DNA of 39,291 nucleotides, from assembly GCA_013373595.1 (NCBI GenBank), contig JABXHO010000114.1:1-39291 (forward strand), written 5' to 3'. This document shows, in pieces, positions 5,618 to 39,222 of this stretch. The DNA comes from Flavobacteriales bacterium (GTDB lineage Bacteria > Bacteroidota > Bacteroidia > Flavobacteriales_D > Crocinitomicaceae). A program made the translations under genes and the position numbers. The notes under the pieces are model-generated. The model did no database searches and had not been told where the DNA came from. It saw nothing but the letters and a program-made list of their open reading frames with translations. Every line of letters starts with the position of its first letter. Within the stretch, counting starts at the first letter, position 1.

Positions 5618-5665
5618 GTTTAGCTTCTCACAAATCGATTTCAGTATTTACATTCAAGACGAATA

Positions 5666-6196
5666 ATGACTTTCACAAACCCCGAAACAGGCGTGTCGCT
5701 TCGGAAATTTAAGCTTGAAGATAAGCAGGGACTTATCGAGTTGGCCAACAATCCAAACATCGCAAAGAACCTACGCGATGGATTTCCACATCCGTATACG
5801 GAGGAAGATGCGGACAATTTCATTCAAAGTTCGATTGAGTCCGAGCCTACAACACGTTTTTGTATCGAGAAAAATGGCGTGTACGTCGGGAATGTTGGGT
5901 TGCATCCAGATAGCGACATCTACCGAAAAAATGCAGAGATTGGTTATTTCATTGGAGAGCCTTTCTGGGGACAAGGAATTGCGAGTCAAGCCGTAAAAAT
6001 GATGGTCGAATATGGCTTCAAGGAGTTAAAGTTACACCGAATTCAAGCGGGCGTTTTCGATTATAATGTTGCCTCTCGAAAAGTACTGGAAAATGCTGGC
6101 TTCGAATACGAAGGAACAGCGAAAGAAGCCATTTTCAAACACGGAAAGTTCTATGATGAGCTGAAATTTGGAATCTTGAACCCATACGAGAAGTAG
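5666..6196 (+). CDS. GNAT family N-acetyltransferase (RimJ/RimL-like)
   Basis: This is a 176-residue acetyl-CoA-dependent transferase of the RimJ/RimL (Acetyltransf_3) subgroup. The acetyl-CoA pyrophosphate loop is visible as GYFIGEPFWGQGIASQAV (about 93-110). It is followed by LHRIQAGVFDYNVASRKVLENAGF, the conserved C-terminal motif of this subgroup. The start MTFTNPETGVSLRKF lies directly before the first strand. The substrate cannot be read from sequence; candidates include ribosomal-protein N-termini, spermidine, aminoglycosides or small amines. It follows the flavoprotein gene by 48 bases and is the last gene of the plus-strand run, facing the convergent methyltransferase. Confidence 0.9.
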   Translation: MTFTNPETGVSLRKFKLEDKQGLIELANNPNIAKNLRDGFPHPYTEEDADNFIQSSIESEPTTRFCIEKNGVYVGNVGLHPDSDIYRKNAEIGYFIGEPFWGQGIASQAVKMMVEYGFKELKLHRIQAGVFDYNVASRKVLENAGFEYEGTAKEAIFKHGKFYDELKFGILNPYEK

Positions 6197-6212
6197 AGGG
6201 GAGATGAGCTCG

Positions 6213-6932
6213 CTAGCTGTTTACACGTTTGTATTCAGCCAAAATAATTCCTGTTGCCATCGCGGCATTTAAGGATTCAGCGGCACCGTATTTGGGAATA
6301 AGAATGGGATGCGTCACTTGTTCTTTGATCGATTCAGAGATTCCATTGCCTTCATTTCCAATGACCAAAATGGCTTTTTCTTGAATGGGAGTCGTGTACA
6401 TGTCAACTCCATCGAGCAAGGCTCCGTAAACGGGAAGGTCCGATTCCGACAAGTAGTCATTCAGATCTACGTATTCAATCGACATGCGAAATAGCGACCC
6501 CATGGTTGACTGCACAACTTTCGGATTAAAACAGTCGACCGTTTCTTTGGAACAAACAATAGAGGAAATTCCAAACCATTCAGCGGTACGAATGATGGTT
6601 CCCATGTTCCCCGGATCTTGAATACCGTCCAAGGCAAGAATTAGATTTCCTTCGTTATTTTCATGTTGAGGAAAGCGCACAACAGCGAGAATATTTCCAG
6701 GATTCTTTTGAGAACTGATTGCCTTCATTCCTCGTTCGTCGGTGTGGTAGCAGCGGTCAAAATAGAAGTGATTATCCGTTGTGCAGATAAACTCAATCAT
6801 GTCCGCATTCTCGGTGAGCAATTCGTGTACAATTTTTTCTCCTTCAACAACAAATAGTTGCTCAGAATCCCTGTTCTTTTTGAGTCGAAGAGAACGAATT
6901 AATTTAATCTTATTTTTGGATAAATTTTCCAC
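6213..6932 (-). CDS. TrmH family (SpoU) RNA 2'-O-ribose methyltransferase
   Basis: This 239-residue SPOUT-fold enzyme transfers methyl from SAM to a ribose 2'-OH, most likely in 23S rRNA. An N-terminal RNA-binding segment (EQLFVVEGEKIVHELL) precedes the catalytic domain. Motif 1 is LDGIQDPGNMGTIIRTAEWFG, with the family Asn and Arg; motif 2 is VIGNEGNGIS; motif 3 is ESLNAAMATGIILAEY, forming the SAM-binding knot. The start codon is GTG; no upstream alternative fits, and MENLSKNKIKLIRSLRLKK matches the usual beginning of this family. The gene is divergent from tamL with only about 40 bases between coding starts, an arrangement often seen in Bacteroidota. Exact target nucleotide unknown. Confidence 0.93.
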   Translation of the reverse strand: MENLSKNKIKLIRSLRLKKNRDSEQLFVVEGEKIVHELLTENADMIEFICTTDNHFYFDRCYHTDERGMKAISSQKNPGNILAVVRFPQHENNEGNLILALDGIQDPGNMGTIIRTAEWFGISSIVCSKETVDCFNPKVVQSTMGSLFRMSIEYVDLNDYLSESDLPVYGALLDGVDMYTTPIQEKAILVIGNEGNGISESIKEQVTHPILIPKYGAAESLNAAMATGIILAEYKRVNS

Positions 6933-6944
6933 GATTGCTTTTAT

Positions 6945-6952
6945 TACTTTTG
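6945..6952 (+). promoter_or_regulatory. Candidate -7 box (TACTTTTG) for tamL
   Basis: This is an exact TAnnTTTG match 19 bases before the TTG at 6971. If used, transcripts would begin near 6959 and exclude the TTG at 6935, which supports 6971 as the start. No well-spaced -33 TTG is seen. Confidence 0.35.
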
Positions 6953-6970
6953 TTCAAACTCATTGGGGAT

Positions 6971-9631: not shown

Positions 9632-10218
9632 AAGAACGTAGACTTCAGAAAAGGACGAAGTTCCTCCCACGTAATCAGCAATTTTTTGCTAGGCCAGTTG
9701 TCGTACGAATCCATCGAAATCTTCATTCCTTCTTCAACCAATTCTACTTGGCAATTTTCTATAGAGATAGATGAAATGAAATCATCGGATGGAGCGTCGT
9801 TTCCTTCTTCAATGATGTGCTTTGTGATATGATCAGCGAAGAATGACTCGTAGTGCTTTTTCTGTTTTTCTAAGAATAAAGAAGTAATGGCGCATGTTTC
9901 ACCCGTATTCAGGTCGAAAAAGTGATTTTCCGTCTTGCTATCATCCAAATCGATACAATGGAAATAGAAGTTCACCTGAAGAAAATTCGCTTTCTGAACA
10001 TAGCCGAACTGTCCGATACAATAATCTTGTTCTTGGTACTCAGAAATAATTGTCCCAATATTTGCATTGAGCTCTTCCTGTGCATCGGCATTTCCCATTA
10101 GTTCAATAATAGGGTAAACCAAACCGTTATCGAGCTGGCCGTTTTTAAATCGTACGTTTTGAGCCTGTGCTAATTGAAGAATAAGCAAAAAGGAGAGTAG
10201 CGTAAGTTGTTTTACCAT
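9628..10218 (-). CDS. Small secreted protein, possibly DUF3298/RsiV-like
   Basis: This 196-residue protein has a clear signal peptide (MVKQLTLLSFLLILQLAQAQ), so it should be periplasmic or outer-membrane associated. The mature domain has a pattern reminiscent of DUF3298-type domains: NHFFDLNTGETCAITSLF, resembling the usual FDLxTGxxLxLxDLF stretch, followed by an amphipathic helix. Two Cys in the middle (DYCIGQF, FHCIDLD) could form a disulfide. The DUF3298 link is pattern-based and tentative. Its stop overlaps that of tamL (9628-9631). It lies downstream of uvrD on the same strand, separated by about 60 bases without an obvious terminator, so it may be read as the second gene of that unit. 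Confidence 0.65.
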   Translation of the reverse strand: MVKQLTLLSFLLILQLAQAQNVRFKNGQLDNGLVYPIIELMGNADAQEELNANIGTIISEYQEQDYCIGQFGYVQKANFLQVNFYFHCIDLDDSKTENHFFDLNTGETCAITSLFLEKQKKHYESFFADHITKHIIEEGNDAPSDDFISSISIENCQVELVEEGMKISMDSYDNWPSKKLLITWEELRPFLKSTFF

Positions 10219-10279
10219 GATTGGATCATTTTATTGTATAATACTTACGATAAAAGTCCAGAAAAGGTTCTAAAACGAC

Positions 10280-12574
10280 TTAGCTGTCAAGAATTGTGAG
10301 TTTCGCAAACCGTAGCAATACCGTCTTTGATCCGTGTCGAGGGAAGAAGATGGTCGCCTTAGTATTGTCTCCTGTTCCTTCGAGTTGGGTCACTTTTCCT
10401 TTTCCGAAACGATCATGCTCAACATTGTAACCTACCTTTAATGAAGTCGGTGGTCCTGTCGGTTTTTCCGAACGACCTAACGGTTTGTTGACGGAGCTTA
10501 TCGGTTTCAAAGAACGCGATCCCATTTGTCTATTCAATCCACCTGAATGCGTCGGTTCAGAGAAGCGACTGGTTCGACCCGTAACGAGAGATCTTCCTCC
10601 TGCGCGGGCAGGCGTTTCGTGATTCAAGTATTGTTGATCAATCTCGTCGATGAATCGGCTGGGTTCGCACGTAATGAGATTTCCCCACTGAAAGCGCGAA
10701 GTGGCATAAGATAAATTACAGGTTTCTTTTGCTCTGGTAACGGCTACGTAGAACAAACGACGTTCTTCTTCCAGTTCTGTGCGTGAGTTCAACGAGAGTT
10801 GAGAAGGGAATAAGTTTTCTTCCAATCCAACGAGATACACATGCTGAAACTCCAATCCTTTACTTGAGTGAATGGTCATCATGGTCACGTGATTGCGATC
10901 TTCATCTTCTTTCTGATCTGCATCTGTGAGCAAGGCAACGTCCAACATGAATTCGGACAGCGCTTTTGACTCTCCTTCTTGTCGTGAGATGGTAAACTCC
11001 TTAATTGCGGCCAAGAGTTCCTCGATGTTTTGGTAGCGCTCTACTTCCTCTGGACCTTTGTCTTTTTCAGAACTCAATTCTTTTAAAACTCCAGATGAAC
11101 GCGCAATTTCTTGAGCCAGTACATCCGCATCCATACGATCCAATTGTGCTGAGAAGCTTTGAATCATCGTAACGAATTCACTGATTCGGTTTTTCGCTCC
11201 TGTATTGATTTGAACTGGGTAGCGACTAAAATCTGAAATAACATCCCACGGACTCACACCATACTGACTCGCTGCAATGATGATTTTCTCAAAAGATGTT
11301 TTTCCAATTCCTCGTTTTGGATAATTGATGACGCGTTTGAGTGCTTCTTCATCGTGATGATTGGCTGTCAATCGGAAATACGCCAATAAATCCTTAATTT
11401 CTTTTCGTTGGTAGAATGATAATCCTCCGTAGATTTTATACGGAACATTCAATTTTCGCAAGGCTTCCTCAAACGAACGCGATTGGCGATTGGTGCGGTA
11501 CAAAATGGCAAATTCGTTGTAGGAAAGTCCTTCATTTTTTGCCTTATCGTAAATCTTTTGGGTAACGAGCTTTCCTTCTTCGTTATCGGTAAGCGTTCGC
11601 GTTACACTGATTTTTTCGCCGCCATCATTGTCTGTCCAAACCGTTTTCTTGATTTGATCTTTGTTTTTGGCAATTACGCCATTGGCAGCTTCAACAATAT
11701 TTTTGGTACTTCGGTAGTTTTGTTCAAGCTTGTAAAGTGAAAAATCAGGATAGTCTTTCTTGAAATTGAGAATATTCTGAATGTTCGCCCCACGGAAGGA
11801 GTAGATACTTTGTGCATCATCCCCAACCACGCATATATTTTCGTACACCGCAGCCAATTTTTTAACAATCAAGTACTGCGCGTAGTTCGTATCTTGGTAC
11901 TCATCTACCAACACGTAGCGAAACTTTTGTTGGTAGTAGCTCAAAACATCAGGGAAATCGCGAAGCAAGACATTTGTTTGATAGAGAAGATCATCAAAGT
12001 CCATCGCTCCCGCCTTGAAACAACGAGCTGCGTAGGTTTTGTAGATACGCGCCATTTCTGGCCGTTTCGACATCTTGTCTTCCATCATGATTTCAGGATT
12101 TTTCTCGTAAGATTCAGGAGAAATCAAGTTGTTTTTTGCGGAAGAAATACGTCCAAGGACGTTCCCAGGTTTGTACGCTTTGTCATCAAGGTTGAATTGT
12201 TTTACAATGTCCTTGATTAAACTTTTCGAGTCCTGCGTATCGTAAATGGTAAAGTTGCTAGGATATCCCAATCGGTCTGCATTGATTCGAAGAATACGTG
12301 AGAATACAGAGTGAAAGGTTCCCATCGTGATGTTTCGGGCTTCTCCCGATCCAACGATATTTCCAATACGCTCGGTCATTTCTTTTGCGGCCTTGTTGGT
12401 AAAGGTTAGCGCAAGTATGTTGAAGGGATCAACACCTTGTTCCATCATGTAGGCAATACGAAATGTAAGTACACGCGTTTTTCCTGAACCAGCTCCGGCA
12501 ATCACCATTGTTGGTCCTTCAATATGTTTTACAGCAGCAAGCTGACTTTCGTTTAATTCTTCTAAATATCCCAT
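10280..12574 (-). CDS. pcrA: UvrD/PcrA-type ATP-dependent DNA helicase
   Basis: This superfamily 1A 3'-5' helicase of about 764 residues acts in nucleotide-excision and mismatch repair and in removing protein blocks. The helicase motifs appear in order: Walker A AGAGSGKTRVL, ALTFTNKAAKEM (Ia), LVDEYQDTNYAQY (II), VVGDDAQSIYSFRGA (III), LEQNYRS (IV), TIHSSKGLEF (V) and FYVAVTRAKE (VI). The Gly/Arg/Ser-rich tail ends in a PcrA-like C-terminal domain (VGYNVEHDRFGKGKV). The ATG at 12574 (MGYLEELNESQ) is preferred to an upstream TTG two codons earlier. A candidate promoter, TTG-N16-TATATTTG, lies just upstream on the minus strand. Whether to call it UvrD or PcrA is a matter of convention. Confidence 0.96.
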   Translation of the reverse strand: MGYLEELNESQLAAVKHIEGPTMVIAGAGSGKTRVLTFRIAYMMEQGVDPFNILALTFTNKAAKEMTERIGNIVGSGEARNITMGTFHSVFSRILRINADRLGYPSNFTIYDTQDSKSLIKDIVKQFNLDDKAYKPGNVLGRISSAKNNLISPESYEKNPEIMMEDKMSKRPEMARIYKTYAARCFKAGAMDFDDLLYQTNVLLRDFPDVLSYYQQKFRYVLVDEYQDTNYAQYLIVKKLAAVYENICVVGDDAQSIYSFRGANIQNILNFKKDYPDFSLYKLEQNYRSTKNIVEAANGVIAKNKDQIKKTVWTDNDGGEKISVTRTLTDNEEGKLVTQKIYDKAKNEGLSYNEFAILYRTNRQSRSFEEALRKLNVPYKIYGGLSFYQRKEIKDLLAYFRLTANHHDEEALKRVINYPKRGIGKTSFEKIIIAASQYGVSPWDVISDFSRYPVQINTGAKNRISEFVTMIQSFSAQLDRMDADVLAQEIARSSGVLKELSSEKDKGPEEVERYQNIEELLAAIKEFTISRQEGESKALSEFMLDVALLTDADQKEDEDRNHVTMMTIHSSKGLEFQHVYLVGLEENLFPSQLSLNSRTELEEERRLFYVAVTRAKETCNLSYATSRFQWGNLITCEPSRFIDEIDQQYLNHETPARAGGRSLVTGRTSRFSEPTHSGGLNRQMGSRSLKPISSVNKPLGRSEKPTGPPTSLKVGYNVEHDRFGKGKVTQLEGTGDNTKATIFFPRHGSKTVLLRFAKLTILDS

Positions 12575-12626
12575 GGGCAAAATAATCCTCGGATGGAGAT
12601 CAATTTGAGGTGAGTTTCTAAACGAT

Positions 12627-12653
12627 CAAATATACGCAAAAGCAGATCGGCAA
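12627..12653 (-). promoter_or_regulatory. Candidate Bacteroidota promoter for the helicase gene
   Basis: Read on the minus strand, TATATTTG (12634-12627) matches the Bacteroidota -7 box TAnnTTTG exactly. A TTG (12653-12651) lies 16 bases upstream in the -33 position. The implied transcription start is about 45 bases before the helicase ATG. Confidence 0.6.
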
Positions 12654-12793
12654 TCGACTTTTAAGAGGAAATAGTTTGATTTTTTTGACGTTTTAATCAT
12701 TCAGTTCTACCTCTCAGTAACCAGATGGATGTTTGTGTTGCTTCCTTGAATTTCAAGCTATACATTGAGATCAAATCACCTAATCAATTCACC

Positions 12794-14347
12794 ATGAGAG
12801 TAGTATTATTCTTTTTTATCCTTTTAATTTCTGGAGCGATTAATGCCCAGTCTAATTACGTTTCGACCTATTTGGAGAATCCTAATTATTACGCATCCCA
12901 ATTGCATAAAATTCCATGGGATTCAACCCGATTAATTCAATACAGGAATTCTTATGACGGAGGATTTCCAGTATTAATCATGGAAGACGTAACAAACGGT
13001 GTAATCACTCCAATCGTTCCGCCCTTGTGTTCAGAAATCAGAAGTATTCCTGTGATTGTGGATGATGGCTATTTGTTTGCGGGAGAGACAATTTCTGGCG
13101 TAGAGTTGCTGTACTTTGATGAAGTAAACTCTACTGTTTTCGATCTCAACATAGGCGTGAATGATAGTGATCCAGTTATTTATGAGTTAAATGATCGTGT
13201 TTTTGTCATTGCATTCGACGGGACACATAAACAATTGTTCGAGTTCGATAAATCAACGCATGCAGTTGTGCAAATCACAAATAACGCCATCGATGTAAAC
13301 TCCGTTTGTGCAGTGTGGGGAAGTGATGTGTATTACAGCACAAAATATGTCAATGCAATCAATGGACTTGACGAGTATACATTGGTGAAGGCTGTTCCTG
13401 TTGTGAGTGGATTCGACCATTTTTTCATTCAAAACATCAACATTCCGACGAGTGCAGATCGCTATGTTGATTGGAAAACACCGCAATTGATGTGGGGAAA
13501 GCTTTATTTGGCTGCTGTTGATGTCTCTCCATATATCTACGATTCAAATACCATGGGTATTTCGGTTATTCTTCCTAACGATCAGGTATCTACGGCAAAT
13601 ATTACCCTGCCAAGTTTTGGAGGAGAATTTTCACTGGTACAGTGGGACGGAAAGTTGGGAATCTACTGTTCTGAACATAACGAGTTTTTTGTGAGTTCTG
13701 ATGGCGTAAATTTTGACGCTGAAGCTGTCCCTTCGAATGGAAAGCTGGTAGAATGTATGGTATCACAAAACGACAAACTCTATTTCAATTGTATGTATTT
13801 GGATGAAACACGCGAAATATTTCAATACGATAACGGATTTCAGTCTAAGTACTACGGCGATCATATTCATTTCTTAGGTGAGGAAGAAGGAATTATCTAT
13901 TCTGCTGATTACGTCCAAGCTGATTCATCATCCATTGTTTTATTGTATACGACAATGGATGTGGTCGATGAAGTGAAAATGTCACCAACGTTTCACCCTC
14001 CGTATGGAAACACAGCTGTAATGCACGAAGGCTTTTTCACCTTTCTTTTTGGTACCGATGGCCCCCTTGAAGATCATGATATTTTCCAGTTGACCGGATC
14101 ACCTAGCGCAGCTCTTGACGAATTGGATATTGAATTCAGTGTCTATCCGAACCCTGTAGCGTCGGGTTCAACAAGTTTTATTCGAACGAATAGGGAAGGA
14201 GAAGTTGAACTATTGACATTGGATGGACAGAAAGTGAGTTCTTTTAATGTCACTCCAGGTACTAATTTAATTCCCTGCTCACAACTCCCTTCTGGCGTGT
14301 ATTTAATTTCATTTGAGAATCGTACACATCGGATTGTTGTAAACTAA
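12794..14347 (+). CDS. T9SS type A sorting domain-containing secreted protein
   Basis: The frame is open from 12725, but the ATG at 12794 gives a proper signal peptide (MRVVLFFFILLISGAINAQ), so I place the start there (517 residues). The last roughly 75 residues form a T9SS type A C-terminal sorting domain: FSVYPNPVASG, then GEVELLTLDGQKV, then LPSGVYLISFENRTHRIVVN. The product is therefore exported by Sec, crosses the outer membrane through T9SS and is released or surface-anchored. The middle has repeated short beta-strand units with Asp/Tyr-rich turns (VYELNDRVFVIAFDG, KLYFNCMYLDE), suggesting a beta-propeller-like fold. I recognise no enzyme motif. It stands alone between divergent uvrD and fbaA. 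Confidence 0.85.
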   Translation: MRVVLFFFILLISGAINAQSNYVSTYLENPNYYASQLHKIPWDSTRLIQYRNSYDGGFPVLIMEDVTNGVITPIVPPLCSEIRSIPVIVDDGYLFAGETISGVELLYFDEVNSTVFDLNIGVNDSDPVIYELNDRVFVIAFDGTHKQLFEFDKSTHAVVQITNNAIDVNSVCAVWGSDVYYSTKYVNAINGLDEYTLVKAVPVVSGFDHFFIQNINIPTSADRYVDWKTPQLMWGKLYLAAVDVSPYIYDSNTMGISVILPNDQVSTANITLPSFGGEFSLVQWDGKLGIYCSEHNEFFVSSDGVNFDAEAVPSNGKLVECMVSQNDKLYFNCMYLDETREIFQYDNGFQSKYYGDHIHFLGEEEGIIYSADYVQADSSSIVLLYTTMDVVDEVKMSPTFHPPYGNTAVMHEGFFTFLFGTDGPLEDHDIFQLTGSPSAALDELDIEFSVYPNPVASGSTSFIRTNREGEVELLTLDGQKVSSFNVTPGTNLIPCSQLPSGVYLISFENRTHRIVVN

Positions 14348-22531: not shown

Positions 22532-22636
22532 GAATTTTCTTGTAATTGACTGGTTAGGTTATTTGAATAAATGAGAACCAAGTTTCGAACATAGCGGTCA
22601 TTCAATTCCTTTTGAAGACCCTTGAAAAGAAAACGT

Positions 22637-25528
22637 ATGAAAACATTTATCAAAAGCTCGAATCAGAGTAAACGGGAAAAGGAGAGAAAAATTCCACTTC
22701 CAAAGTTGGTGCATACAGTACCAATTGCACTTGTATTAATGGGAACCACCAGTTGTTCGTTAATGTGCAAGGTTTTTAAAACATGTGATGATCCGGACCC
22801 CGTAGTTGTGGTGACGCCAGAAGTAAAGGATACTGTCGTTTTAACCGATCATGTGTTTAACGAAACGCCTCCCACAAATAGAGACGCTACCTTTTTTGAC
22901 TTGCTTGCTCAGAATTCGGAACTGAGTTATTTTGATGTTCGGGATTCATTCAATGCCTTTTGGAATAATTTGAACGAACGGGAGAAAGAAGATCATGAGA
23001 GAGATAAGAAATTATTTGATCGATGGGATTACTTTTGGGCACCGCGTATTGCAGGGTTGGACGGATCATTCGATACACTCAATTACATTTTGGCCAATCA
23101 TTATTTGCAGAACCCTCCACAGAATTTGGTTTCAGGAAATCGATCTTCAAACAATAACTGGACGCCTGTTGGACCGGATGAAATTCCTGCGAATAATTCG
23201 AGTTACTCCCTAAATTACAAAGGTGTTGGTCGTGTAACCAAAGTGAAATTTCACAACAATTACGATGGAACCTATCCGATCGGAACACCAGAGCCATTAA
23301 CAGCAAAAGGACATAACACTTTGTATGCTGGTACACGAATGGGAGGACTTTGGAAATCTACCGATGGTGGAGCCAATTGGTTCAATCCTTCTCAGTTTCT
23401 TTTACCGCAAGGAGTGCAAGATCTCGAGCTTTTCGGAGCAGATAGAATTTATACTGTTTCGACGGTTCATGGATTCAACTACGGTGATCATGGTTTACCA
23501 ACCATTCAACGTTCGGAAGATGGGGGAGAGACCTGGTTTATTAGTGGGGCTCCTTTCGATTATTCCAGTGCTGTAAATTCATTAGCAACGGGATCAATTC
23601 GTATTAACGACTTAACCGTCCACCCAAGATGTTGGTACGTAGCAAGTCGATCTTCTGAAAACCAAGAAAATGGAAGCACGCGTGCACCAACGTGTAACAT
23701 GTCTAGACTACTTGTGGCTTCTTCGTTGGGAGTGCATTATTCTGATGACAATTGTTTAACATGGACAAAAGTGTTGGATGCAGCTAATTTGAATTATTCA
23801 TTGGGTCCAAATGAAGTGGTTGTCAATCCAAAACAAACAAACGAGCTCTACACCTTCGGATCAGTTAACTGGAACGATATGACACAAGGAAAAAATGCGA
23901 ATGAAGTGTATCGTTCGGTGGATGAAGGACTCAATTGGTATCTATGGAAGACATGTAATTTAGAAACAGGAACGAATGCGGGATTCAATTTAGGATTACC
24001 TGCTGCAAATTTGCCTGATGCACGTGTCAGTCAGATCAAACTAATTCCTTCCAAACAGTCAAAAGATAAGCTATACGCCGTTGTGTGGACTTATTACATG
24101 GGAAACTCCAGTTATAGCGGTAACGGAGTCTCGTATAACGCGAGTAACAGATCAAAGCAATGGCTGTTGAAAACTGAAGACCGAGGTGCTACTTGGACTA
24201 CGGTATTAAAAGGAACAAGCTACTTCAACCGAACGGTAGATTTCGAAATTGATCCATGGAACGATGATGTAATTCACTATTGTGACGCTGGAGGGTATGC
24301 GAGTACGGCTGTTTACTACCGCTTAACCATTAATCCAGCAACAAATGTGGCATCACGATTTCAACAACCTTCGTACAACTCGGGAATGCATGCAGATGTA
24401 CGCGACCTAGAACTTAAATACATTCCAAATGGTGGAAATCAAGGAGTGAATATTCTAGCCGGTACCGATGGAGGAATAAACATCACGCCAAATTCTACAG
24501 CATCAACGATGAACTGGACAAATATTACTGGAAAAGGTCTACACATTTCGGAAATTTACAAGTTTAGCAATACACAGATCACAGGAACAGATGCACTTGT
24601 GGCAGGACTTCAAGATAATGGCTCCTTCTCGTGTAATTACGATGCAATGGGAACATCAGACTGGAGAATGGTCGTGAGAGGAGATGGAATGGATTGCCAG
24701 TACGATCCTCAAAACGGAAGTCGCTATTTTTCTACAGATGGCCAAACGGGGAATGGTCAAGCCGTGTACCAGTATAACTCGTCAACGGCGAACGCGCCAT
24801 CATCCTCTAAAAACACCATGAGCATGGGCACGGGGGAATGGGTTTATCCAATTGAGTTCGATCAATCAAATCCTTCTAACTTATACATAGGAAAACAAAA
24901 CCTGTGGAAAAAGACAGGAAGTGTAGCAGGAACATGGCAAGCTGTTATGACGCCTACTCAACAGAGTCAATGGTTTCCAAATGGAACGACCGTTCGAGCA
25001 TTCAAAGTAGCGAACAGTAATTCTATGGTAATTGCGCGGAGATGGAATAGCTCCATTTATACGATAGATGCTGGTGCGACGTGGACACAATTATTAGATC
25101 CAGAACCAGATCCAACAAAGCGATTACACATTTGGGGACAGGTTCAATTCGCATACGATCCAGGAAATCCGACCACCTTGTTTGTGGCAATATCAGGATT
25201 TATCACGAACTCAGTTTCGGATGGTTCCCTTCAGAAAGTATATAAAATCACCAATTTAGGACAGCCAAATGAAAAGTGGACGAATTGGAGTAATGGTTTG
25301 ACTGTTGCGGATCAAGTAAACTGTATCGCTTACGATAACACGAGTGACATGCTCTACATCGGTACGGATCACGGAGTATACAGAAAAAGTGCAGTGACAA
25401 GCGGAAACTGGACGATGTACGGCAATAAGTTGCCAATGACGTACGTCACAGATATTGATTTTCGACACGACAAAAATGTTGTAAGAGCTTCAACCTTTGG
25501 AAGAGGCTTGTGGGAAATCCAAAAATAG
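22637..25528 (+). CDS. Asp-box/BNR repeat beta-propeller surface protein, probable lipoprotein
   Basis: This protein has about 963 residues from the ATG at 22637; an upstream TTG at 22622 is less likely. A long positively charged n-region (KREKERK) precedes a hydrophobic stretch and ALVLMGTTSC, so Cys40 may be lipidated, although the lipobox is weak. The body carries at least six Asp-box motifs of the sortilin/VPS10 and GH74 type: STDGGANW, SEDGGETW, SDDNCLTW, SVDEGLNW, TEDRGATW and IDAGATW. It closes with a typical propeller end (FGRGLWEIQK). No T9SS sorting domain is present, unlike similar proteins in this phylum. No catalytic residues can be assigned; surface binding or glycan processing are both possible. 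Confidence 0.82.
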   Translation: MKTFIKSSNQSKREKERKIPLPKLVHTVPIALVLMGTTSCSLMCKVFKTCDDPDPVVVVTPEVKDTVVLTDHVFNETPPTNRDATFFDLLAQNSELSYFDVRDSFNAFWNNLNEREKEDHERDKKLFDRWDYFWAPRIAGLDGSFDTLNYILANHYLQNPPQNLVSGNRSSNNNWTPVGPDEIPANNSSYSLNYKGVGRVTKVKFHNNYDGTYPIGTPEPLTAKGHNTLYAGTRMGGLWKSTDGGANWFNPSQFLLPQGVQDLELFGADRIYTVSTVHGFNYGDHGLPTIQRSEDGGETWFISGAPFDYSSAVNSLATGSIRINDLTVHPRCWYVASRSSENQENGSTRAPTCNMSRLLVASSLGVHYSDDNCLTWTKVLDAANLNYSLGPNEVVVNPKQTNELYTFGSVNWNDMTQGKNANEVYRSVDEGLNWYLWKTCNLETGTNAGFNLGLPAANLPDARVSQIKLIPSKQSKDKLYAVVWTYYMGNSSYSGNGVSYNASNRSKQWLLKTEDRGATWTTVLKGTSYFNRTVDFEIDPWNDDVIHYCDAGGYASTAVYYRLTINPATNVASRFQQPSYNSGMHADVRDLELKYIPNGGNQGVNILAGTDGGINITPNSTASTMNWTNITGKGLHISEIYKFSNTQITGTDALVAGLQDNGSFSCNYDAMGTSDWRMVVRGDGMDCQYDPQNGSRYFSTDGQTGNGQAVYQYNSSTANAPSSSKNTMSMGTGEWVYPIEFDQSNPSNLYIGKQNLWKKTGSVAGTWQAVMTPTQQSQWFPNGTTVRAFKVANSNSMVIARRWNSSIYTIDAGATWTQLLDPEPDPTKRLHIWGQVQFAYDPGNPTTLFVAISGFITNSVSDGSLQKVYKITNLGQPNEKWTNWSNGLTVADQVNCIAYDNTSDMLYIGTDHGVYRKSAVTSGNWTMYGNKLPMTYVTDIDFRHDKNVVRASTFGRGLWEIQK

Positions 25529-31201: not shown

Positions 31202-31963
31202 ATGAAAGTACTTCTTTCGCCTGCGAAGGCATTAGACATGGATAAAGAAATAAACGCACCTCGTGCAAGTGCACCGATCTTTTTAGACAAAAGTGAAGCG
31301 CTGGTGAAAAAACTCGCAAAGTTCTCTTCAAAGAAAATAGGAGAGATGATGCACTTGTCGCAAGATTTGTCCGATTTGAATCATGAGCGTTACCAGTCGT
31401 GGAAGGCAAGTACGGAACTAGATGGAAACAACACGTACGCAATTGCAGCCTTTAATGGTGAAGTGTATCGTGGGTTCGATGCAACGACACTTTCAGCAGA
31501 GAAATTAGAGGAAGCGCAAAATACCGTGCGCATTTTGTCGGGATTATATGGCGTATTGAAGCCCTTGGATCTGATTTATCCATACCGATTGGAAATGGGA
31601 ACGAAGTGGTCTGTAACGCCAAAAACAACTTCACTTTATAAGTTTTGGGGAACATCCATTGCAGATACACTCAACGAAGAAAATGAGGATGGAATCATTG
31701 TGAACCTGGCTTCCAATGAATACTTCAAAGCGGTGGATAAAAAAGCCTTGAAGGGACGTATCGTAACACCAACTTTCAAAGAGTTTAAGAATGGAAAGTA
31801 CAAAGTAATCATGGTATATGCGAAGAGAGCACGTGGTTTTATGGCGCGATACATCGTCGATCATTCGATTACCAACGTGGAAGACTTGAAAGCATTTGAT
31901 ACGGATGGTTACCGCTTCGACGAAAATCTTTCATCTGGAGACGATTGGGTATTTACCCGATAA
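31202..31963 (+). CDS. yaaA: Peroxide stress protein YaaA (UPF0246/DUF328)
   Basis: This 253-residue cytoplasmic protein is a member of the YaaA/DUF328 family. In E. coli YaaA limits intracellular iron and oxidative DNA damage during peroxide stress, and the fold contains a DNA-binding helix-hairpin-helix-like element. Recognisable motifs are the start MKVLLSPAKALDMD, DLSDLNHERYQSW, AAFNGEVYRGFDATTL, RILSGLYGVLKPLDLIYPYRLEMGT, and near the end KVIMVYAKRARGFMARYIVDH. Length is standard. It is followed after 34 bases by a four-Cys membrane protein gene. The exact biochemical activity of the family remains uncertain. Confidence 0.94.
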   Translation: MKVLLSPAKALDMDKEINAPRASAPIFLDKSEALVKKLAKFSSKKIGEMMHLSQDLSDLNHERYQSWKASTELDGNNTYAIAAFNGEVYRGFDATTLSAEKLEEAQNTVRILSGLYGVLKPLDLIYPYRLEMGTKWSVTPKTTSLYKFWGTSIADTLNEENEDGIIVNLASNEYFKAVDKKALKGRIVTPTFKEFKNGKYKVIMVYAKRARGFMARYIVDHSITNVEDLKAFDTDGYRFDENLSSGDDWVFTR

Positions 31964-32596: not shown

Positions 32597-32640
32597 CAGT
32601 TCTTGATCCTTTTCCTCCCTCAACTGTACAGCATAATATG

Positions 32641-34548
32641 ATGAAATCAATCTGCATCGGAATTGTCATACTTTGGAGCTTGTTAGCATGCTCGCAATTG
32701 CCTGTTAGCAAAACGGATGCGCAGATTCAGACGTTTTCAGATTTTAAATCACGTAGCTCACAACCACTGTATCAAAAATACGGTCAGGTGTCGGCGGTAA
32801 AAGTAGTATTGGACACAAAAACGAATAAACTTCACTTCATTTCTTCGTCGGATTACGAATATCATCATGAATTCTGTCGCGAAGAATTAGGGTATTACAA
32901 ATCATTGAGTGATTTCAATGATGAAAATTATTCGTCCGAAAGTACGCGAAGATTTTTGCTGGCGAACATCAATTACTATCAATCCATCGATAAGTTCACA
33001 TTGGAATTGGGGCCTTCAGATCGGATGAATGCCCAACACCTGGAAAAATTATTCAATGCAGTGAAAGCGGAGGTGTATTTCAGTCAGAATTTGTTTTTGA
33101 TGCTAAATACCTCTCACGTTGTTTCGTTAAAGCCAAGCCTTTCGAAGCAGATTCCTTCATTAACGCCTGAGGAAATCTACGCGAATCAAACCTATCAACC
33201 GCTTTCAAAGTATTCGAATTACGGGAGAGTGGTGATTGTTCGAGATTGGGAAAAACAGTCAAAAGATATCCGTTCAACAGATATTTTACTTCTAGAAGAT
33301 ATTCCGCCAAGTTTTCCGTTAGTAGCGGGCGTAGTGGTGACGCAATTTCAAACGCCATTGAGTCATGTTTCTTTACTCGGACAAAATCGTAAGATTCCCG
33401 TTTGTGCGTATACCAAGCTGTTCAGTACGGATCATTTGCTTGCATTGGAAGGGAAAACGGTGAAGTTTACAGTAGAACAAGATACATTCAAGTTGGATCT
33501 TGCGGACGTGACGCTGAAAGGGCAGAAGCGTAGTAAATCTCCCATCAAGTTGCGCTATGACTTCTCAATGGATACGCTAATCGCTGCAGAATACATTCGT
33601 GAAAGAGACAGCAAAAGTGTGGGCAACAAAGCAGCAAACTTTGCTTTATTGGTCGATTATACAGAGAAAATTGATTTCAAAACGCCAGAATCTGCTTTCG
33701 CCATTCCGTTTTCCTTCTACAAACAACACGCTACGAAATCAGGCATTGATCCGCTTTTGGCACAATTGCTCCAGAAAGATAATTTGAATCGACATCCGGA
33801 TTTGGTGAAGCGCGATTTGAAACTGATTCGAAAAATGATCAAGAAAACGCCTGTTGATGCTCAACTATTGGCAGATATCGAAAAAATGATTCTTCGACTG
33901 GGGACGCACCGACGTTTGCGCTTTCGATCTTCTACGAATGCGGAGGATCGGGATGGTTTTTCTGGAGCTGGATTGTATACGTCCAAAACGGGGGAGTTGT
34001 ATAGCGATAAGAAGCCAATCGATCGCGCGATTAAAAAAGTGTGGGCGAGTTTGTGGTCGTACGGTGCATTTATGGAGCGAGAAGCGTTTAACATCGATCA
34101 TCGAACAGTCGCAATGGGAATTCTGGCACATCGATCTTTCCCAAATGAAGAAGTAAATGGCGTGGCGATTACCACCAACTTATATCGTGACAATTACCTC
34201 GGATTTGTTGTCAATGCGCAATTGGGCAATGAAAACGTGGTAGATCCAACCAATGGAGTAGTGTGTGATCAATTTATTTGCTATCCCGATGAGGAAGTGT
34301 CTGGTTACGGACGAAACGGGGGAAGTATTGATATCATTACTTATTCGAGTCTTAATAATGGAAAGTTGGTCATGACGGATGAGGAGATTACTGCGTTGGC
34401 GAATACCCTGGAAAGGATAAAACGACTTTACTTGAGAAAGCACTATACGAATAAATCGTACCTTAATTTCGGTTTGGATTTAGAATTTAAACTGGATGCC
34501 GAAACGCGACAGCTGTACATCAAGCAAATGCGGATTTTCAATAACTAA
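32641..34548 (+). CDS. Lipoprotein with phosphohistidine and PPDK-type ATP-grasp domains (glucan water dikinase-like order)
   Basis: This protein has about 635 residues. Two consecutive ATGs (32638, 32641) are possible; the numbering below counts from the first. A signal peptide ends in the lipobox SLLAC (Cys18), predicting export and lipidation. Residues 20-220 are an unrecognised N-terminal region. Residues 225-285 form a swivelling phosphohistidine domain, with the predicted phosphoacceptor His243 in TPLSHVSLLGQNRKIPVC. Residues 325-636 form a PEP synthase/PPDK-type ATP-grasp domain: SVGNKAANFALL, RFRSSTNAEDRDGFSGAGLY, KVWASLWSYGAFMERE, and C-terminal DLEFKLD with IKQMRIF. The order His domain then ATP-grasp, with no PEP/pyruvate barrel, resembles glucan water dikinases rather than PPDK. 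The substrate is unknown, and ATP supply outside the cytoplasm is a puzzle. Confidence 0.82.
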   Translation: MKSICIGIVILWSLLACSQLPVSKTDAQIQTFSDFKSRSSQPLYQKYGQVSAVKVVLDTKTNKLHFISSSDYEYHHEFCREELGYYKSLSDFNDENYSSESTRRFLLANINYYQSIDKFTLELGPSDRMNAQHLEKLFNAVKAEVYFSQNLFLMLNTSHVVSLKPSLSKQIPSLTPEEIYANQTYQPLSKYSNYGRVVIVRDWEKQSKDIRSTDILLLEDIPPSFPLVAGVVVTQFQTPLSHVSLLGQNRKIPVCAYTKLFSTDHLLALEGKTVKFTVEQDTFKLDLADVTLKGQKRSKSPIKLRYDFSMDTLIAAEYIRERDSKSVGNKAANFALLVDYTEKIDFKTPESAFAIPFSFYKQHATKSGIDPLLAQLLQKDNLNRHPDLVKRDLKLIRKMIKKTPVDAQLLADIEKMILRLGTHRRLRFRSSTNAEDRDGFSGAGLYTSKTGELYSDKKPIDRAIKKVWASLWSYGAFMEREAFNIDHRTVAMGILAHRSFPNEEVNGVAITTNLYRDNYLGFVVNAQLGNENVVDPTNGVVCDQFICYPDEEVSGYGRNGGSIDIITYSSLNNGKLVMTDEEITALANTLERIKRLYLRKHYTNKSYLNFGLDLEFKLDAETRQLYIKQMRIFNN

Positions 34549-34597: not shown

Positions 34598-36421
34598 TTA
34601 CTTTTTGATCACAAATCGCTCTGTATTGTTTGCGTTTGTTCTCAATAAATAAACTCCTTCTGTCAAATCACTCACATCAATCGTTGTGCGTTGTTCAGCA
34701 TCTACAATCGTTGATTTTACAAGTTTACCATCTGTATTGTAGATGAACACTTCATTGATTCCAAGATTTCCGTCCCATTCCAATGTGATACTGTTCACCG
34801 CTGGATTCGGGTATAACTTAAGCATCGCAGGAGCTTCTTCTTCTTCTTCAATTGTTTCAGCAACGTACATTTTTGATCCTGCACATTTTCCGAATTGGAT
34901 ATCATCAATTCCATAATCGTTGAATCCAGTTCCTGAAGTTTGACGAATTTCAATAACCGAATTTGAAGAGGAGTACGTCGCATCCCAACTTACACAGTAT
35001 AGCGTCCAATCGTGTTCTGGTGCTGTTGCTGTGTTGAATGATCCTATCACATTTCCATCAATCAGTACATCGAATGTTTGCGTTGAATTGTTACTTGCGT
35101 TGTCCGAAATTTCTCGAATTTCCCAGAATTCAAAGATGTAAGTACTTCCAGAACTAACTGATACATTGTCTTTCCAAATAGTACCATTTGTACCGTCAAC
35201 AATCAAGAAGTGACCATCAGAAGTTCCCAATGTATGATCCCAAAGATCATCGATCCAAAGCAAGTTTCCACATTTGTCTCTTGGCTCGTGACCAACACAA
35301 ACAGATCCAACTGAACACGTACACGTTACGGTAAGTCCACTGGATACAGGAATAGATGTGTTTTCAAAGTCTCCATTCGGTAACTGATCATTAATCTCAC
35401 ATCCACATCCATCTTTTTTACAATCGACGTAAACAGTTTCGCAATAGGTCACATATGGTACGTTTGGATCATCACAACAGTAAATGCGAACGCACACTTC
35501 GTATTCTCCATCACCAGGGAAAGAATAAATAAAACTAGAGCTAGACGATACAGGTACTCCGTCTACAAACCAGAAGTAGCAGTATTCAGAACCAGAAGTA
35601 TAGGCGCTAAATTTATGGTTGTAGCAATCTTTTATAGATACAGAGTATTCAAAATAATCTTCCAGTTGTGGAATCTCACATTGAATTTCACATTGTCCGA
35701 ATTCGATATCATCAATTCCGTAATCATTGTATCCACTACCGGCAGTTTGTACAATTTCAATTGTTGCTGACAAAGAAGAGAAGTTGGCAGTCCATGTAGT
35801 ACAGTATTGTGTCCAAACATCTTCTGGAGCACTCGCTGTATTGAACGAAGCAATTGTTGTTCCATTCACTCTTAAATCGAAGGATTGAGTTGAGTTGTTT
35901 CCCCAGTTGTTGTCGGATACTTCTCTAATTTCCCAGAAAGAGAAAACATAATCTTGCCCTGCGGATACAGGAACTGTTTCGCTCCATACAGAACCGTTTC
36001 CTCCATCTACGATGAGAAAGTGTCCTGATGAGGTTCCGAAGGTGTGATCCCAAAGATCATCAATCCAGTAGGAGTTCAAACATTTGTCTCTTGGTTCATG
36101 ACCCACACATACAGATGAGGCACCACATGTGCAGTTAACACCCAAACCAGAGGTTACTGGGAGTCCACTTTCGAAATCTCCATCTGGAAGAAGGTTTGTT
36201 ACATTGCAGCCACAATTCCGAGATGTGATGGCTCCGAATTCCGCAAGTTCTGCAGGTGTTCGTAAATCAGGTGTATTGGTGTAATTCGGAAGACTGTCCG
36301 AAACAGATGTTGGTATGGTGATTTTCTTGTTGAGCGGAGCTTCAATTTGGCTCATACTAAAAAACGAAAAGCACGATACAATCGCGAGCACGAAATACGT
36401 GCGAATAGTGGTTGTTTTCAT
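34598..36421 (-). CDS. T9SS type A sorting protein with two copies of a Cys-rich module
   Basis: This is a 607-residue secreted protein. A signal peptide of about 25 residues ends near SMSQ. Two homologous modules (about 70-244 and 340-513) share SVCVGHEPRDKC, WIDDLWDHT, GTS.GHFLIVDG, FWEIRE and YGIDDI. Each opens with a Cys cluster and an N/DGDFE strand typical of jelly-roll binding domains. Between them lies a PKD-like domain (about 250-334) with several Cys. After a poly-Glu linker (EEEEEA), a T9SS sorting domain (533-607) reads LKLYPNPAVNSITLEW...LTEGVYLLRTN...RFVIKK. Export through T9SS is therefore expected. The modules could bind carbohydrate or protein ligands; no catalytic motif is seen. 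Confidence 0.88.
   Translation of the reverse strand: MKTTTIRTYFVLAIVSCFSFFSMSQIEAPLNKKITIPTSVSDSLPNYTNTPDLRTPAELAEFGAITSRNCGCNVTNLLPDGDFESGLPVTSGLGVNCTCGASSVCVGHEPRDKCLNSYWIDDLWDHTFGTSSGHFLIVDGGNGSVWSETVPVSAGQDYVFSFWEIREVSDNNWGNNSTQSFDLRVNGTTIASFNTASAPEDVWTQYCTTWTANFSSLSATIEIVQTAGSGYNDYGIDDIEFGQCEIQCEIPQLEDYFEYSVSIKDCYNHKFSAYTSGSEYCYFWFVDGVPVSSSSSFIYSFPGDGEYEVCVRIYCCDDPNVPYVTYCETVYVDCKKDGCGCEINDQLPNGDFENTSIPVSSGLTVTCTCSVGSVCVGHEPRDKCGNLLWIDDLWDHTLGTSDGHFLIVDGTNGTIWKDNVSVSSGSTYIFEFWEIREISDNASNNSTQTFDVLIDGNVIGSFNTATAPEHDWTLYCVSWDATYSSSNSVIEIRQTSGTGFNDYGIDDIQFGKCAGSKMYVAETIEEEEEAPAMLKLYPNPAVNSITLEWDGNLGINEVFIYNTDGKLVKSTIVDAEQRTTIDVSDLTEGVYLLRTNANNTERFVIKK
34883..35404 (-). repeat. Second copy of the Cys-rich module
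   Basis: Residues 340-513 of the T9SS protein repeat residues 70-244. Short blocks are also conserved at DNA level, including CATTTGTCTCTTGG on the plus strand in both copies. Confidence 0.88.
35690..36214 (-). repeat. First copy of the Cys-rich module
   Basis: Residues 70-244 of the T9SS protein match residues 340-513 almost without gaps, with the 12-residue block SVCVGHEPRDKC identical in both. Confidence 0.88.
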
Positions 36422-37011: not shown

Positions 37012-39174
37012 TTATTGTTTCACAAACTTTTGCTGCTCAACTTTACCATTGCGTACAATTCGCACGAAATACATACCGCTCGTTAATTCAGAAATGGGAA
37101 TTTGTTCGGATGAATTCGATTCCGAGACGATATTCCCTTGCATGTCGATAATCAGGATTGATTCACTTGGCATTTCTTCAAATCCTTGAAGCGAGATGTA
37201 ATCGGAAGTTGGATTTGGATAGATGGACCAGTTGAAAGATTGTTCCATTTCAACGGTTCCAACAACACCAAGTGCCAATTGAACAGCAAGGTAGGCATTG
37301 ATTTTTCCGTGTCCCCAATGCACGTCTCCCGTTGCAGGAATCACTCCTGTATGATTGTCTTCACGAGCTGTTTGAATCAAAATGTTTTTCACTTGAGCAG
37401 GAGTAAGTGTGGGGTTGGCATCTAAAATCAATGCAACAACACCTGCCACAACGGGCGATGACATCGAGGTACCGCTCAATCGCGCAAAATCATAGGTTCT
37501 ACCATTGAAATCGACACTTTCGATCGCGGTATATGCGGCATCAGTATAGGATGACATGGAAGATCCAACAGCAATACCCGGCGCTGCAATGTCTGGCTTC
37601 AAGGTATCATTAATTAAGGGACCAACACTTGAAAAGTTCGCCAATGCGCCACCAGCTAATGTACCACCAGCAGTGTAAAAGTTTGACGCATATGCTGCCA
37701 CTGAGATTGCTGAGAAAGTACAGGCGGGAGCGCCTATTCCATTTGAATCGTTTCCTGCAGTATAGCCAGAACCAAGAGAGGAGAAGGGCATTCCCCAGTT
37801 ACCAACGTCGGATGTTAGTTCCGTAACATTCCAAAAATGAACGGTACCTGATGCTGCTTGCGCCTTCAACACAATACGATAAGATCCAGTGGGTCGTTTT
37901 ACACGAAGTCGTGCCTGAGGTCGGCCATTACTAGGATAGGCAGCATCGCACGAAAGATTGAAAAAGATGGAATCTGCTCCCACTACTACAAAACTATCGA
38001 TATAGTTGAGGGTGGTCGCTGTTGAGTAATAATCACTTTCGGCTAACAATGTGTTGGTTGAGCTTAAGACTTTTATTCCTACGGAATAAGCCTCACCTGG
38101 TGTTCCCCAACTTTGAATGCTTTGTCCCCACAATGTGGACAGTGTTGCTGAGCTGTAAAAATTGATGCGTGTTAACAAAGAGTCGCCTTGAAAATCTTTC
38201 TGAATGTGGAAGTTTTCACCGCCGTTGTTTCCTGCGGAAGTCACGAACACGACACCAAGACTCGAATAATTGTCCAAGGCCTGACTTAGCAGAGATGTAC
38301 CATCAATCGATTGGAAGTGATACAAGCCCCAACTCATATTTATGACCAAGCGTTTGCCTTCAGCCGTTGCTTTGTTATACATCCATTCCCAGGCATCGAG
38401 CACCGCACTTTCATCCACTAAAAATGTTGTGAAGAGAAAGTTTGATTCGAAAGCAAGACCGCGATAGATTGTTCCTGCACCGCTACCTCCTGCAATCCCT
38501 GCAACGTGCGAACCATGCGTAGCATATGAATAAATGTTCGACGTATCCGATTCGGCATTGATGAGTTCTGTTGGAGTCGCGTATTCCGTTCCGTACGCAT
38601 ATCCTGCGGGTGCTGGACCAGCGTTTTTGAATTGATCCCATGCCGCCAAAATGCGTGTATTGGAAAGCAAGGTATCGTAGTAATTTGGCGAAGTGTAATC
38701 GAATCCCCAGTCAGTAATTCCAATAATCACATCTTTTCCCGTATATCCTTCAGGCAAATTGGCGCCCATCCAAACACTATCTGCTCGAACGTCGCTAATT
38801 ACTCTGTCCAAGTGCGGCTTCACCTTACCCGCTATCTCAATGTAACTCAAGTTTTCATTTGAAAGAAGGCTTGAGAGTTCACCAATTGGACATTTTAGAC
38901 TTAAGATTTCTCCTATTTTTGATCCGACTAAAATGCCATCACTTTCTAATTCATTCTGATGAAAAGGAGTATTCACCTTTGCTAAAAAGGAAACGTATTC
39001 TGTGCCGTGAATGTTATTCACTGGAAAACGCTCTCGGATTTCATCGGAGACGATTCCGTGGTTACGTCCTATTTCAACTTGTAAAAACTGGATGTCTGCT
39101 TTCGTATTGGCACTCGTTGTAACTTGAGAGAATCCAGCGAATGGAAACAATAGAAGAAGTAGAAAGAATCTCAT
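37012..39174 (-). CDS. Subtilisin-like (S8) serine peptidase with T9SS sorting domain
   Basis: This is a 720-residue secreted protease. The ATG at 39174 gives a clean signal peptide (MRFFLLLLLFPFAGFSQ); the frame is open slightly upstream to 39198, but that extension is not needed. The catalytic triad is complete: Asp155 (GITDWGFDY), His220 (THGSHVAGIAGG) and Ser570 (LSGTSMSSPVVAG), with oxyanion Asn316 (SAGNNGG). A beta-rich insert of about 130 residues (about 325-455) separates His and Ser regions, as in Kp43-like subtilases. The N-terminal 20-130 is a probable propeptide. The C-terminus is a T9SS type A sorting domain (SIYPNPTSDYISL...LTSGMYFVRIV...QKFVKQ). It is co-transcribed with the RDD gene. 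Confidence 0.95.
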   Translation of the reverse strand: MRFFLLLLLFPFAGFSQVTTSANTKADIQFLQVEIGRNHGIVSDEIRERFPVNNIHGTEYVSFLAKVNTPFHQNELESDGILVGSKIGEILSLKCPIGELSSLLSNENLSYIEIAGKVKPHLDRVISDVRADSVWMGANLPEGYTGKDVIIGITDWGFDYTSPNYYDTLLSNTRILAAWDQFKNAGPAPAGYAYGTEYATPTELINAESDTSNIYSYATHGSHVAGIAGGSGAGTIYRGLAFESNFLFTTFLVDESAVLDAWEWMYNKATAEGKRLVINMSWGLYHFQSIDGTSLLSQALDNYSSLGVVFVTSAGNNGGENFHIQKDFQGDSLLTRINFYSSATLSTLWGQSIQSWGTPGEAYSVGIKVLSSTNTLLAESDYYSTATTLNYIDSFVVVGADSIFFNLSCDAAYPSNGRPQARLRVKRPTGSYRIVLKAQAASGTVHFWNVTELTSDVGNWGMPFSSLGSGYTAGNDSNGIGAPACTFSAISVAAYASNFYTAGGTLAGGALANFSSVGPLINDTLKPDIAAPGIAVGSSMSSYTDAAYTAIESVDFNGRTYDFARLSGTSMSSPVVAGVVALILDANPTLTPAQVKNILIQTAREDNHTGVIPATGDVHWGHGKINAYLAVQLALGVVGTVEMEQSFNWSIYPNPTSDYISLQGFEEMPSESILIIDMQGNIVSESNSSEQIPISELTSGMYFVRIVRNGKVEQQKFVKQ

Positions 39175-39194
39175 AATTTGAAGTATTTCGACTT

Positions 39195-39222
39195 GCAAGT
39201 TACGGAAAAGATCGGTGTCAAA
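39195..39222 (-). promoter_or_regulatory. Candidate promoter of the subtilase-RDD operon
   Basis: On the minus strand TTTG (39222-39219), 16 bases of spacer and TAACTTGC (39202-39195) resemble the -33/-7 pair, with one mismatch in the -7 box. The implied transcription start is about 14 bases before the subtilase ATG. Confidence 0.45.

Follow-up and report, generated by a model that had tools for sequence, protein, structure and literature searches.

A predicted exported, dikinase-like protein family of Bacteroidota whose phosphohistidine domain precedes a C-terminal ATP-grasp domain

The locus and its reading frame

The window analysed here is a stretch of 39,291 nucleotides from a Flavobacteriales bacterium, and its forward strand carries, at 32638..34548, the coding sequence of a dikinase-like protein with a predicted export signal. 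The frame can begin at either of two ATG codons, giving 636 amino acids from the ATG at 32638 and 635 from the second at 32641, and we number residues from 32641 throughout. A first-pass annotation of this DNA had described an exported lipoprotein with a dikinase-like core, and the frame is indeed open, with every motif listed there (SLLAC, LSHVSLLGQNRKIPVC, VGNKAANFALL, RFRSSTNAEDR, KVWASLW and IKQMR) found again; its residue numbers Cys18 and His243 are correct when counted from 32638, but from 32641, the start that it gave, the same residues are Cys17 and His242. The gene is single copy, a protein search of its own genome having returned no second one.

Full-length relatives reach down to 36-38% identity, and the substitutions that separate the gene from six close orthologues fall mostly at the third codon position, so the reading frame is more than a chance opening. 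Against orthologue L002, the substitutions by codon position number 113/55/327 over 633 codons. Because dS is mostly saturated, the selection analysis used only dN and codon-position counts, by which the gene is judged to be under purifying selection.

Two genes upstream of the dikinase-like gene, and in the same orientation, lies a yaaA-type peroxide-stress gene (31202..31963, forward). Just downstream, the reverse strand encodes a 607-aa type IX secretion substrate (34598-36421), with a module seen twice by eye and a sorting tail, and, also opposite in strand to the gene, a subtilase that is likewise a type IX secretion substrate with a sorting tail (37012-39198). A 968-aa open reading frame at 22622-25528 (forward strand) has no Pfam match at E <= 1e-4.

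Domain architecture

The protein runs from an export signal through an N-terminal domain and a phosphohistidine domain to a C-terminal ATP-grasp domain. The N-terminal domain (about residues 30-185; 32728..33195) contains Lys54 (32800-32802) and His75 (32863-32865), and we infer for it a role in acceptor binding. The phosphohistidine, or swivel, domain (about residues 186-300; 33196..33540) carries the motif QTPLSHV with the predicted phospho-carrier His242 at 33364-33366. The PPDK_N-type ATP-grasp domain (residues 325-631; 33613..34533) holds Lys330, Arg429, Glu435-Asp436, Asp613-x-Glu615 and Gln629-x-Arg631. Pfam PPDK_N covers residues 325-631 (E = 4e-23; 82.6 bits, cut-off 27) and matches all 29 family members scanned, which bears out the earlier description of a dikinase-like core with the His domain ahead of a C-terminal ATP-grasp. 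The absence of a PEP/pyruvate barrel noted there likewise holds, no such match being found in the window protein with Pfam or NCBIfam.

The profile search suggested in the first-pass annotation gave a divided answer, with PPDK_N above its cut-off and the glucan water dikinase His-domain model GWD1_pHisD (PF22973) below it in the window protein (residues 219-285, E = 0.013, 15.5 bits against 27). The only further Pfam match there is Ig_mannosidase, at E = 0.16, and PF00391 does not match its His domain. One orthologue (L017, genome G069) does exceed the GWD1_pHisD cut-off, with 30.8 bits against 27; at E <= 0.05 the model matches 10 of the 29 members scanned and leaves 19 without a match, while none of 14 control genomes yields a match. 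A second GWD1_pHisD match, below the cut-off, lies in a 293-aa frame of genome G066. Together, the orthologue above the cut-off, the matches in 10 of 29 members and the empty control genomes support a kinship between this His domain and that of glucan water dikinases, as judged by profile similarity, with most members falling below the cut-off.

The N-terminal domain proposed to bind the acceptor is described by none of the searched libraries. Its profile matched nothing in the PDB, and Pfam gave no consistent family, with seven families each found in one or two of 14 members (best E 0.0079). Starch-binding modules (CBM45/CBM20) had no Pfam match at E <= 0.05 in the 29 members scanned.

Comparison with known dikinases

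In glucan water dikinases a phosphohistidine domain with an LSHV-type His motif is followed by a C-terminal ATP-grasp domain. The window protein shares with the plant enzymes GWD and PWD this order, with a PPDK_N-type ATP-grasp, and the LSHV-type motif, and the GWD1_pHisD match is weak in it and above the cut-off in the one orthologue. It differs in being bacterial and, by its signal, exported, in having another N-terminal domain and in lacking a match to a starch-binding module. The earlier likening to glucan water dikinases thus does not extend to membership, given the 15.5 bits against 27 for GWD1_pHisD and the unmatched starch-binding module, and we rejected that assignment.

With PEP synthase and PPDK the window protein shares an ATP-grasp domain with the same residues and a phospho-carrier histidine; it differs by its reversed domain order, the lack of a barrel match, the unmatched PF00391 and the export signal. 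The NCBIfam PEP synthase models match the same ATP-grasp region with scores well short of what they require (75.5 bits, cut-off 598), and membership in this group was rejected on the position of the His domain before the ATP-grasp, the missing barrel and these scores. A profile built from clades A and B (defined below) also matches PEP synthase structures (hmmsearch; 8a8e, E = 3.8e-23), and in the alignment RSS..AED, DIE and Q-x-R fall on the corresponding segments of the family. The alignment also sets SH in the His domain of PEP synthase against LSH of the family, at 0.8 bits, which is not significant alone.

Rifampin phosphotransferase (RPH) and the prodigiosin ligases PigC/RedH resemble the window protein as dikinase-superfamily proteins with a common ATP-grasp and an acceptor other than pyruvate, to go by the accessible part of PMC4844700, which gives the order in RPH as ATP-grasp, acceptor (RIF-binding) domain and C-terminal His domain. 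In the window protein, by comparison, the His domain is central, the ATP-grasp comes last and an export signal is present. The RPH model scores 45 bits against a cut-off of 999, through the ATP-grasp part only, and with the difference in architecture this led us to reject RPH membership; the PigC and RedH models also give sub-threshold matches confined to the shared ATP-grasp domain.

Among the literature matches listed, as represented by titles and abstract openings and with subscription papers and preprints outside the search, none deals with an exported dikinase or with a lipoprotein resembling PPDK. The terms 'signal peptide', 'secreted', 'Bacteroid' and 'glucan' do not occur in the accessible part of PMC8100219, nor do 'dikinase', 'phosphoenolpyruvate' and 'pyruvate' in the main text of PMC10288586.

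Distribution and three clades

Matches at E <= 1e-3 occur in 32 of a set of 99 genomes made up of the source genome and relatives. A survey at the order level found matches at E <= 1e-90 in 64 of 299 genomes, which hold clade A or B, and one at the phylum level found matches at E <= 1e-20 in 28 of 395, eight of them being PPDK/PEP synthase-like as called from later scores and match starts. The distribution of the gene within the order is patchy. In the fetched loci, 122 ORF hits reduce to 80 distinct proteins, and with nine rows left out (eight PPDK/PEP synthase-like ORFs and one Streptomyces row) 71 are counted here, the window protein among them.

These 71 proteins form three clades. Clade A, to which the window protein belongs, comprises 35 proteins of about 630 aa; clade B comprises 24 proteins of about 830-1380 aa, some of them cut at the end of the locus; and clade C, whose 12 proteins measure about 975 aa except for one that is cut at 796, has a different N-terminal region. 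In the core tree A, B and C each lie on one side of a branch, with support of 94, 100 and 100, respectively. The tree comes from a quick search that returned a long-branch warning, and the points at which the Streptomyces relative, L017 to L020 and L074 join it are therefore unsure. Four genomes (G080, G022, G550 and G600) each have an A-size and a B-size match, which indicates that A and B are paralogues. Three members of clade B also match CARDB and SprB.

Clade C (L056-L064, L068, L074 and L035) is found in several families of Bacteroidota; its proteins carry an export signal, start with 'RGPY...WFC.DGS' and have VSHVQLLARN and RSDTNMED as motifs of the His/ATP-grasp core. The one member of this clade that was scanned reaches none of the curated NCBIfam cut-offs.

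Conserved residues

The survey of homologues proposed in the first-pass annotation shows the phospho-carrier His242 kept in 71 of 71 Bacteroidota proteins, together with Lys330, Arg429, Glu435 and Asp436, and the Q-x-R pair (Gln629 and Arg631) in all 69 that reach that far. Asp613 and Glu615 are kept in all 59 proteins of clades A and B. At this point the aligner shifts in clade C and the Asp613-x-Glu615 column is unreadable there; a D-x-E motif is found by pattern in 3 of 11 clade C proteins, and by eye in L061.

Within the N-terminal domain Lys54 and His75 alone are invariant, in 59 of 59 members of A and B, and both also occur in the Streptomyces relative described below. Rows of clade B were cut after the core for this alignment and those of clade C entered it without their first 420 residues, so the N-terminal columns carry no information on clade C. 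The retention of a large N-terminal domain with this invariant pair in A, in B and in Streptomyces suggests a real acceptor site.

Export signals and predicted location

In the window protein a short hydrophobic signal is followed by the lipobox SLLAC. The signal peptide takes up residues 1-16 (32641..32688, ending L-L-A), with the lipobox Cys17 at 32689-32691, and a competing signal peptidase I site lies before Gln19 (32695-32697), following the rule, given in the available part of PMC5837995, that Bacteroidetes signal peptidase I substrates mostly begin with Gln. Cleavage would thus take place before Cys17 or before Gln19, and the good lipobox and short hydrophobic stretch favour a lipoprotein. 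At least 90% of the 29 rows in the A2 alignment retain Gln at position 19, a level that Cys does not reach.

Signals were called by a home-made script for hydrophobicity and cleavage sites, not by SignalP, and it finds one in 33 of 35 proteins of clade A, 23 of 24 of clade B and 10 of 12 of clade C, or 66 of 71. In the five that it misses (L112, L115, L125, L062 and L074), which have no well-placed ATG or are located at a contig edge, a hydrophobic N-terminus can be seen by eye, as can an x-Q site. An export signal can accordingly be recognised in all 71 members, in keeping with the earlier proposal that the window protein is exported. When the script was applied to the nine rows outside the family (eight PPDK/PEP synthase-like and one Streptomyces), three appeared signal-like and none had a lipobox or Q site, as compared with 47 of the 71 members that have one or the other.

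The lipobox is less widely kept. It is present in 16 of 35 members of clade A and absent from 19 of them, from 24 of 24 in B and from 12 of 12 in C, a loss in most homologues that the first-pass annotation had named as evidence against its own proposal. On the tree its presence requires at least five changes within A if the doubtful L112, which is outside the 16, is taken as positive. Homologues that lack the lipobox keep another export signal, so the claim of export survives, while the lipoprotein character is lineage-specific and not a trait of the family: with a signal in all 71 and a lipobox in only 16 of 35 proteins of clade A, export is conserved and lipid anchoring is not.

According to the part of PMC5080379 that was available, lipoproteins are exported to the surface by an acidic signal directly after the Cys, of the type K-(D/E)2, SDDDD or SDDFE. 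No such signal follows the Cys of the window protein, where the residues are SQLPVSK, and among the 16 lipobox members 13 lack acidic residues at the six positions that follow, two have one and L007 has two. Surface display of the window protein, which had also been suggested, is therefore not indicated, and the periplasmic face of the membrane is the more likely location. Clade B presents a different picture: the type IX secretion tail (Por_Secre_tail) was found in all eight members scanned, seven of them over the curated cut-off and L028 just under it, and these proteins are expected, by this tail, at the surface or in the medium. The tail is absent from the window protein in the Pfam scan and from the three complete clade C members scanned, and clade C proteins are probably soluble exported proteins of the periplasm.

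Relatives outside Bacteroidota

Nine plasmid records match, the best being a Streptomyces protein of 668 aa (WP_142270066.1); viral or phage relatives were searched for and none was found. A profile comparison (hhalign) aligns WP_142270066.1 over nearly its full length, the N-terminal domain included (E = 1.2e-38). It keeps the full layout with Lys54 and His75, and differs in having no signal peptide from its annotated start, about 25% identity and an extra segment in the ATP-grasp part. The second Streptomyces relative, WP_331760287.1, is known from a tblastn hit alone. PLSDB annotates the Streptomyces relatives as 'PEP/pyruvate-binding domain-containing protein', a label that hides the reversed domain order and the missing barrel.

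On two Streptomyces plasmids (L075 and L128) the relative belongs to a cassette made up of a divergent PAS-domain gene, an ATP-grasp protein, the family member and an MFS transporter, and this cassette resembles a small biosynthesis-and-export unit. The full-length profile match suggests that the N-terminal, His and ATP-grasp domains are one old unit, and with the gene neighbours it hints at a small-molecule acceptor in the Streptomyces lineage.

A clade C query matched 28 plasmid records, none over more than 80% of the query. The 12 clade C matches listed cover about 35-38% of it, in the ATP-grasp part, and at least half of these 12 are annotated as ppsA or PEP synthase.

A possible extracytoplasmic phosphotransferase

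The dikinases, which use up two phosphate bonds of ATP, are regarded as enzymes of the cytoplasm (or of plastids). The family described here appears, on the features of its sequences, to be exported, catalytically conserved and dikinase-like, and to be neither a glucan water dikinase nor a PEP synthase. The most likely reading, which we consider somewhat probable, is that the window protein is an active extracytoplasmic dikinase-like phosphotransferase, in which His242 would be charged with phosphate and the acceptor bound at the N-terminal domain, by analogy with characterised members of the superfamily. After Sec export, as read from the signal, the protein would reside in the periplasm, probably lipid-anchored on Cys17. 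The C-terminal ATP-grasp would bind Mg-ATP and place its beta-phosphate on His242 in the swivel domain, with release of AMP and Pi, a step taken from the mechanism of PEP synthase, PPDK and RPH. For RPH, the accessible part of PMC4844700 describes a histidine that attacks the ATP beta-phosphate, removal of the gamma-phosphate by water and a swivel domain that moves to the acceptor domain. In the window protein the phosphohistidine domain may similarly turn towards the N-terminal domain and hand its phosphate to an acceptor (a hydroxyl, a carboxyl or something similar) bound around Lys54 and His75. As the acceptor, a small molecule and a glycan of the envelope or the environment seem about equally possible. 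The ATP would come from the periplasm or from outside the cell, through leakage and lysis; the review PMC7432876, in the part available, refers to periplasmic ATP in E. coli and to marine bacteria that release ATP. Levels of ATP beyond the cytoplasm are low, though real, and we counted this against the proposed phosphotransferase, along with the patchy distribution of the gene, a gene context that points to no pathway, and the weak His-domain matches to GWD1_pHisD and PEP synthase.

The same core would be placed outside the cell by type IX secretion in clade B and probably in the periplasm in clade C. More generally, the chances seem even that Bacteroidota hold an extracytoplasmic branch of the dikinase superfamily, as the sequences of its three clades would suggest, with a complete phosphohistidine/ATP-grasp core, three export routes (lipoprotein, soluble signal peptidase I substrate and type IX secretion) and the use of external ATP to phosphorylate an acceptor. 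If a conserved exported family of this kind is real, then either these bacteria can use ATP found outside the cytoplasm as a substrate, or an extracellular phosphorylation, be it of glycans, of the envelope or of small molecules, has escaped notice. The predictions for His242, Lys54 and His75 make the family directly testable.

A narrower form of the proposed phosphotransferase fixes the kind of acceptor: the family would phosphorylate or activate a small acid, amide or alcohol in the manner of RPH or a prodigiosin ligase, the reaction having moved outside the cell in Bacteroidota. The Streptomyces plasmids, where the relative lies between ATP-grasp and MFS transporter genes with the divergent PAS-domain gene adjoining, agree with this reading, and so do the sub-threshold RPH, PigC and RedH matches; but these matches are confined to the common ATP-grasp domain, and such neighbours were not recognised in the Bacteroidota loci compared by gene clusters, and we regard it as rather unlikely, if worth keeping in view.

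It is less likely still, and in our judgement improbable, that the exported core has no dedicated acceptor and, by autophosphorylation and hydrolysis, converts ATP to AMP and phosphate, acting as a scavenger or remover of ATP that would help to supply phosphate or to quench ATP signals. Invariant catalytic residues and the exported appearance of all 71 members would suit such a role, as would the existence of extracellular and periplasmic ATP and its hydrolysis there (PMC7432876, as far as its available part goes). Dikinase chemistry is, however, a complicated route to ATP hydrolysis, and A, B and the Streptomyces relative all retain the large N-terminal domain, in which Lys54 and His75 are invariant.

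The first-pass annotation had also considered that the protein might have become a binding protein. Such a former enzyme, now only binding a nucleotide or other ligand as a sensor or binding protein, would fit the scarcity of ATP outside the cytoplasm and the lack of the gene in most sampled genomes of the order, but the invariant catalytic residues speak against it, since the tested columns do not vary across three clades, which is unexpected in a pseudoenzyme, and we hold it to be very improbable. That the protein is a cytoplasmic PEP synthase-like enzyme whose N-terminus merely resembles a signal peptide, as the Streptomyces relative without a signal from its annotated start might suggest, is hardly credible against signal-type hydrophobic N-termini in 71 of 71 members, a lipobox or Q site called by the script in 47, and the type IX secretion tails of clade B.

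Gene neighbourhood and other dikinase-like genes

Of the 19 clade A loci examined, 10 have a same-strand YaaA gene upstream, either directly adjoining or separated by one gene; these ten are all from the same genus, and three loci (L008, L021 and L023) are cut upstream. Six of the clade A loci come from other genera. Four of these (L041, L042, L044 and L046) have no neighbour cluster in common with the loci of that genus; in L043 YaaA and one further common cluster occur at other places of the stretch, and in L045 an ABC-type gene is the single common cluster. Because the yaaA arrangement was confined to loci of one genus, it is probably not part of the function, and gene context was set aside as a clue to function because the linkage is limited to the genus and the context gives no pathway.

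Another contig of the source genome (C103; L080, 22000-38000) carries two PPDK_N/PEP-utilizer proteins and an aminotransferase, at 5301-7916 on the forward strand and at 7919-10378 and 10971-13829 on the reverse strand. In these two PPDK_N proteins the ATP-grasp comes first and the PEP-utilizers (His) domain last, no signal peptide is seen by eye and no pyruvate barrel is matched; their best models are of the PRK06241-type 'PEP synthase', below the cut-off, and the PigC and RedH models match them too, also below the cut-off. For the nearby 953-aa aminotransferase the best NCBIfam hit is the prodigiosin enzyme PigE, with 215.6 bits against a cut-off of 850, and the three genes are possibly a prodigiosin-like or other biosynthesis cluster.
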